Source of the DNA: Gemmatimonadota bacterium
GTDB taxonomy: Bacteria; Gemmatimonadota; Gemmatimonadetes; Gemmatimonadales; GWC2-71-9
Assembly (NCBI GenBank): GCA_020350425.1
Contig: CP070716.1
Location: forward strand, 1 to 53,306
DNA: 53,306 bases
Reading direction: 5' to 3'
The position numbers and the translations under genes were made by a program. Positions 52,554 to 53,306 of the stretch are shown one piece after another. Within the stretch, counting starts at the first letter, position 1. Each line of letters starts with the position of its first letter. The notes under the pieces are model-generated. The model did no database searches. It had not been told where the DNA came from and saw nothing but the letters and a program-made list of their open reading frames with translations.

Positions 52554-52852
52554 GGTGTCCGAATATGGTGACATGACGGCCCAGTTGGGGGCGACGGGGT
52601 AAATCCTAACCAGTTGTCTAGCAATGCTTTAGACGTCTTGTGACTGATGGCACGGATTTTCCGTCGGAGATGTGCAGGAATACACTGTGGCCTGCTGAGC
52701 GCCTTGTCGCCAGGCAAGCATCTCGTCGGGAGGGGACGAGCGGGACCACGCTAAGCCCGGGCTCAGCAGGCCGCAGAGTATCTCCCCCAAGGCATTTCGC
52801 GACTCTCCCCCCTCGCCTAACTTCCAACGACGACCTTCACGCGGGGGACGCT
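52554..52852 (+). other. Structured non-coding region upstream of the NfeD-like gene
   Basis: A ~300-base gap with no gene and unusually rich in inverted repeats. A small hairpin GTCT-AGC...GCT-TT-AGAC (52616-52634), a second ACGGA-TTT-TCCGT (52652-52664) and a long one at 52677-52785 (separate entry). Two pyrimidine tracts, TCTCCCCC (52781-52788) and CTCTCCCCCC (52803-52812), follow. No sigma70 promoter could be matched with confidence. Confidence 0.6.
52677..52785 (+). ncRNA. Candidate structured RNA or long hairpin
   Basis: A 16-bp helix with one G-U pair, CTGTGGCCTGCTGAGC (52685-52700) with GCTCAGCAGGCCGCAG (52761-52776), extends past one A-A mismatch with ATAC/GTAT and, beyond a bulged C, GGA/TCC. 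It encloses three small hairpins: GCCT/AGGC (52701-52715), CTCGTC/GACGAG with loop GGGAGGG (52722-52740) and CGGG/CCCG (52741-52759). The cloverleaf shape is not a tRNA; no T-loop is present. It matches no riboswitch consensus I recall. The strand follows the downstream gene and is not proven. Confidence 0.5.
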
Positions 52853-53306
52853 GTGTCTCGTTGGCCCGTTGCGCTGGCGACCGCCCTTCTAGCTGCGCAG
52901 CCCGTACCGGCCTCGGCCCAGCAGGTGCTGGTGTACCGCATTCCGGTCACGGGCACGATCGAGTTGGGCCTGGCTCCCTATGTCGAGCGCGCGATCGAGG
53001 AAGCGCACACGGCGGGCGCCGCTGTGATCGTGCTGGATATCGACACGCCCGGCGGCCGCATCGACGCCGCCCAGCAGATCGTCAAGGCGGTGACCGGCAG
53101 CGAGCTGCCCATCTACGCCCTCGTGAACACCCACGCGTGGAGCGCGGGGGCGATCATCGCGCTGGCCGCCGATTCCATCTACATGACGCCGGCGTCCTCG
53201 ATCGGTGCGGCGACGCCGGTGACCGGAGGAGGGGAGAAGGCCCCGGAGAAGATCGTCTCCGCCATGCGGAGCGAGATGCGCGCCCTCGCGGAGCGGCGCG
53301 GCCTCG
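52853..53306 (+). CDS. NfeD1b/ClpP-class membrane serine protease (5' part)
   Basis: Partial, cut by the window end; 151 codons visible. GTG start with GGGGGA 6 bases before it. A signal peptide (VALATALLAAQPVPASAQ) is followed by VYRIPVTGTIELGLAPYVERAI, VIVLDIDTPGGRIDAAQQI and NTHAWSAGAIIALAAD, whose Ser is the nucleophile of the Ser/Lys dyad. This is the N-terminal protease domain of the long NfeD family, found with stomatins and membrane quality control. The catalytic Lys and the membrane/NfeD domains lie outside the window. Confidence 0.88.
   Translation, partial: MSRWPVALATALLAAQPVPASAQQVLVYRIPVTGTIELGLAPYVERAIEEAHTAGAAVIVLDIDTPGGRIDAAQQIVKAVTGSELPIYALVNTHAWSAGAIIALAADSIYMTPASSIGAATPVTGGGEKAPEKIVSAMRSEMRALAERRGL

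Follow-up and report, generated by a model that had tools for sequence, protein, structure and literature searches.

The element upstream of nfeD in the window (the whole stretch of 53,306 nucleotides analyzed in this study) is very likely a conserved structured RNA. The reading that we prefer, to which we assign a probability of roughly 0.6 on the basis of sequence comparison, is that it represents one member of a new family of structured small RNAs that occurs in multiple copies and acts mainly as free sRNA. The family has 36 or more copies, distributed over 15 genomes of a single GTDB family of Gemmatimonadota, with one to six copies per genome. In all copies, the RNA takes the shape of a four-way junction, in which a closing stem (P1, at least 16 bp) is joined to three hairpins (P2, P3, and P4).

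Four-way junction maintained by compensatory changes

The predicted RNA fold of positions 52660-52800 has an energy of -70.9 kcal/mol, compared with a mean of -53.6 for shuffled sequences (z = -4.13; 0 of 200 shuffles were as low), and the minus strand of the element folds more weakly (z = -2.96). As described in an earlier sequence-only reading of this DNA, the 5' arm (52685-52700) and the 3' arm (52761-52776) of P1 pair over 16 bp with a single G-U, and the helix continues outward past an A-A mismatch through ATAC and GTAT (52680-52683 and 52778-52781, respectively). Including the mismatched adenines, these outer extensions occupy 52680-52684 on the 5' side and 52777-52781 on the 3' side, and the resulting 21-nt arms are 90% complementary. 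In the family consensus, the 60-nt interior of the window copy is composed of the P2 hairpin (52703-52718; 6 bp with the 4-nt loop GCCA), the P3 hairpin (52722-52740; 6 bp with the 7-nt loop GGGAGGG), and the P4 hairpin (52741-52759; 4 bp with the 11-nt loop ACCACGCTAAG), all on the + strand, as is P1. The three interior hairpins of the sequence-only reading are therefore present, but the loop sizes that it gave were slightly off, as the consensus puts a 4-nt loop on P2. The nfeD gene (52853-53306, + strand; NfeD1b-type membrane protease, Pfam PF25145, 1.6e-40) is cut at the window end (53306) because 100 N, an assembly gap, come next in the genome.

In the alignment of 36 copies, 90.5% of the cells pair and double-sided changes are found at 31 of the 32 pairs, with 164 compensated cells compared with 49.4 in shuffles; fitting this alignment to the model favors the structure somewhat, and the slid controls and the members read by hand agree with it. 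None of 500 shuffles reached any of the covariation measures, and slid pairings fall to approximately 40%. The two arms of P1 covary, with double-sided changes at 15 of the 16 pairs; all six pairs of P2 covary, and all six pairs of P3 have double-sided changes. In P4, the loop ACCACGC is conserved, the two central GC pairs are kept in every scored copy, and the outer pairs vary in register. The seven orthologous copies on the argH side (described below) covary among themselves (13 pairs; 21 cells vs 7.5 in shuffles), and the signal is thus no artefact of pooling unrelated copies. Conservation of the helix in relatives had been set beforehand as a check; the helix is conserved and its covariation is strong. 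G-U cells are commoner than A-C cells (85 vs 31), and the + strand folds better in 28 of the 36 copies, which identifies the + strand as the RNA strand.

A DNA repeat, either mobile or similar to REP and MITE elements, could form the hairpin from its inverted arms and have no function as RNA; it would also be dispersed in such numbers and carry inverted arms at its ends. This explanation is very improbable, because the arms vary among the copies but remain complementary, the sites are conserved across genera, and the G-U/A-C asymmetry is that of an RNA. Copies at other sites maintain their stems by compensation and not by a common arm sequence, which answers the check for a repeat element. No match was found in phage records, plasmid records, or viral contigs, and no transposase was present among the neighbors that were read; a transposable repeat is disfavored on these grounds.

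The conserved unpaired bases are located in the terminal loops, as GCC in P2, GAGGGG in P3, and ACCACGC in P4. In the P2 loop, the G is kept in 30 of 34 copies, the first C in 35 of 35, and the second C in 29 of 36, and each base of the G/A/G/G/G run of the P3 loop is kept in 31-35 of 35-36 copies. A pseudoknot between the P3 loop and CTCCC just past the helix had been considered possible. The CTCCC is present at 52782-52786, but the pseudoknot finds no support in the family: across the 36 copies, the mean longest match of the P3 loop is 4.22 with its own downstream 60 nt and 4.31 with the downstream sequence of other copies. In L092, L097, and L099, which belong to genus g54, the P3 loop AACGGGGA replaces GGAGGGG and the P4 loop is altered too; the two loops may change together in this subgroup.

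The P3 loop usually contains GGA, as would be the case for a CsrA-binding sponge RNA similar to CsrB or RsmZ. However, there is a single such loop per RNA, and its conserved part is GAGGGG rather than GGA. CsrA is encoded in only 7 of the 102 genomes of the GTDB family, all of them non-carriers, and none was found in any carrier. A sponge for CsrA, to which we attach next to no probability, is refuted in the carriers within the completeness of their genomes.

Distribution and genomic settings of the copies

A DNA search of the source genome gave two copies, the second of which is a partial match 1.26 Mb away (about 1315690-1315830 on the contig), and DNA searches gave more copies in relatives. 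When ten true members were compared, the inside of the element was common to them, and the outer stem varied in sequence but stayed paired. Of the 102 genomes in the GTDB family, 16 gave a match (in one case a marginal one) to a first covariance model built from six members, and a second model confirmed 15 carriers. The second model was also run on the remainder of the order, for a total of 288 genomes, and on 346 genomes sampled evenly from the phylum, and no convincing match was obtained in either.

The core pattern was also searched over approximately 85,000 species genomes, and matches were found in Gemmatimonadota MAGs and in four other contigs, one of which, labeled Myxococcota (L119; JASJCT010000196.1), scores with the model (78.8 bits). 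The TyrRS on this contig is 72% identical to that of G021, a genome of the carrier GTDB family, and several carriers have the TyrRS gene no more than about 7 kb away from the argH-side copy; this likeness and proximity suggest that the contig is probably misbinned Gemmatimonadota. The pattern matches in Streptomyces and L117 were rejected, as the covariance model does not fit them. Matches of approximately 35 bits at L061 and L062, in a sister family and at the same places as L107 and L108, were taken as chance, with a tRNA-like sequence directly after them and a different fold, and the weak matches at L063 and L064 were likewise taken as chance.

Four places recur among the copies, and the copies outside these places are scattered. 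At place A, in four genomes, the element is upstream of nfeD; in G001, another gene is inserted between the two. The gene that follows nfeD is identical in kind in G001 and G007 and appears flotillin-like from reading its sequence, without a family search. At place B, five genomes have the element facing the 3' end of argH, and two have it at the equivalent spot facing the 3' end of an amidohydrolase-like gene. Place C, found in three genomes or more, lies upstream of genes for TonB-dependent receptors, and place D, in three genomes of one genus, is between HlyD-type and MacB-type ABC genes; a copy upstream of a second ABC gene is also found in this genus. Places A and B recur in several genera, an indication of vertical inheritance at these places. 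An nfeD-specific element is not supported, as the majority of the copies are elsewhere, including the conserved argH-side site.

Matches to the c-di-GMP-I riboswitch are located approximately 300-700 nt from argH-side copies, in L026 (800-896, - strand), L002 (989-1072, - strand), and L005 (1879-1971, + strand; below the gathering score). Those in L026 and L002 lie toward a PilX-like gene on the strand opposite to the element.

Many copies, including that of the window, have a leader-like position about 70-200 nt before a same-strand gene (nfeD, a TonB-dependent receptor, or ABC ATPases), with no T-run after P1. Such positions would suit a cis-regulatory leader, either riboswitch-like or protein-binding, in which P1 and a U-run would form a regulated terminator for the downstream gene. 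As a general explanation we consider a leader rather unlikely, since the downstream genes have no common theme except the envelope, G001 has a gene between the element and nfeD, and the conserved bases sit in terminal loops. Moreover, at place B, which is conserved more widely than any other site, the element is turned to the 3' end of argH and there is no nearby same-strand gene that it could regulate; this favors a free RNA. The copies at places A, C, and D could be leaders as well, and the window copy may be an nfeD mRNA leader instead of, or in addition to, a free sRNA.

Putative promoters, transcript ends, and mode of action

As a free sRNA, the RNA would be about 110-180 nt long, would start shortly before P1, and would be made from stress-type promoters, resembling those of ECF sigma factors at the argH and HlyD/MacB sites and those of sigma-54 at the nfeD site. 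The motif TGAAAC-N15/16-CGT, which we take to be the classical form of a sigma-W-like ECF promoter, is located 12-25 nt upstream of six copies in two unrelated settings (places B and D); the nfeD site lacks it. A second motif, CAAC(C/G)-N15-18-N(G/A)TCTA, is found only upstream of place-B copies, and L119 has both of the argH-side motifs. All four nfeD-side copies have TGGCA(C/T)...TTTC/TTCC 16-25 nt before the element, which in the window is the putative promoter motif TGGCACGGATTTTCC (52648-52662, + strand). Because the motifs were spotted by eye and counted afterwards, and because orthologous copies are not independent, their counts are descriptive and not blind tests: 6 of the 11 occurrences of the first motif in 330 kb are near copies (0.13 expected), 5 of 5 occurrences of the second are at place B, and 4 of the nfeD-side motif are near copies (0.12 expected).

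The nfeD-side motif resembles a sigma-54 promoter, although its -12 box is atypical, and is best termed sigma-54-like; sigma-54 is encoded in all seven of the carriers tested. Upstream of this motif, the window contains an imperfect dyad, CTAACCAGTTGTCTAGCAATGCTTTAG (52606-52632, + strand), which may be a regulator site, and imperfect dyads resembling it are found at the same position in the other three nfeD-side copies.

Immediately after P1, 9 of the 36 copies have a T-run (at least six T within 10 nt), compared with 0.43% of background windows, which suggests that P1 probably doubles as a terminator. An A-run precedes P1 in 4 of the 36 copies, and a strong separate hairpin is found shortly after P1 in other copies, among them L071 and L073. 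These runs, and the intergenic position of several copies, would also be expected of a bidirectional transcription terminator with a decorated tip, the function of which would be limited to ending transcripts. We regard this as highly unlikely, since a plain terminator has no need of three covarying side hairpins and conserved loops, the majority of the copies lack a T-run, and putative promoters are located just upstream.

In the preferred reading, that of a free sRNA, the transcript would fold into the four-way junction with its ends tied by P1, and transcription would end in many copies at P1 followed by a U-run or at a separate hairpin just past P1. The three conserved loops (GCC, GAGGGG, and ACCACGC) would be the likely contacts for mRNAs or a protein, and the window RNA may extend into nfeD as a leader. 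Regulation in trans through the loops or a bound protein, an envelope-stress theme, and the targets are guesses. It is a tentative proposal that the copies are paralogous stress-induced, Hfq-independent sRNAs with a rigid four-way-junction body, in which the loops serve as fixed mRNA or protein contacts and the copies are placed under different sigma factors. If this were true, several stresses would converge on one kind of RNA.

Partner proteins and known RNA classes

Searches for Hfq and TROVE/Ro in the 102 genomes of the GTDB family gave no match, and matches to both were obtained in control genomes. Together with the lack of CsrA in the carriers, these results argue against those partners within the completeness of the genomes, and an Hfq-dependent sRNA and a bacterial Y RNA (YrlA) were rejected. 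The Qrr1-5 RNAs of Vibrio differ from the present family in that they have another fold and depend on Hfq, for which no gene was found in the carriers' GTDB family. They resemble it as paralogous sRNA copies within a genome that are sigma-54-driven, a sigma-54-like motif being present at the nfeD-side copies (PMC10162802, PMC8043402).

The envelope-stress sRNAs that depend on sigma-E or ECF factors, MicA and RybB (PMC1804206) and FoxI and FoxJ (PMC11005410) are likewise short RNAs with ECF promoters, to which the ECF-like motifs found here may be compared; they have no four-way junction and have known targets, and they show no relation in sequence or structure to the family. FoxJ of Fusobacterium is an ECF-driven sRNA that was initially annotated as a 5' UTR, and its host lacks both Hfq and ProQ (PMC11005410). 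Such an arrangement therefore exists, and FoxJ serves as an analogy, not as a relative.

The Rfam search that had been suggested as a check gave no Rfam 15 match at the element, either in the window at the gathering score or, with the cutoff relaxed to E = 10, in ten member loci. ARAGORN and Rfam found no tRNA or tmRNA at the element, in agreement with the sequence-only reading. The undescribed RNA or cis-regulatory element that it proposed is now a covarying family that is absent from Rfam and from the literature searched, which yielded no account of small regulatory RNAs in the Gemmatimonadota. The type of evidence, a conserved covarying intergenic motif, is the same as for the structured RNA candidates that comparative genomics has produced (PMC2864571, PMC6429828), from which the window element differs in having no Rfam family match; PMC2864571 contains no mention of Gemmatimonadetes. 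In this family, which is new to Rfam, a defined RNA can be studied that has a well-supported structure and occurs in many natural copies.

An integron attC site (5' RYYYAAC ... GTTRRRY 3') was rejected by inspection: GTTGGGC/GCCCAAC occurs in some P1 arms, but the order is reversed, and the candidate cores sit inside the stem without consistent extrahelical bases. Likenesses to the T-box, twister, and HDV seen by eye were dropped, as the layout differs and there is no Rfam match. At the other end of the window, where ARAGORN is silent, a tmRNA match (RF00023, 132.7 bits) occupies positions 1-357 on the + strand, and its 5' end is cut by the window start.
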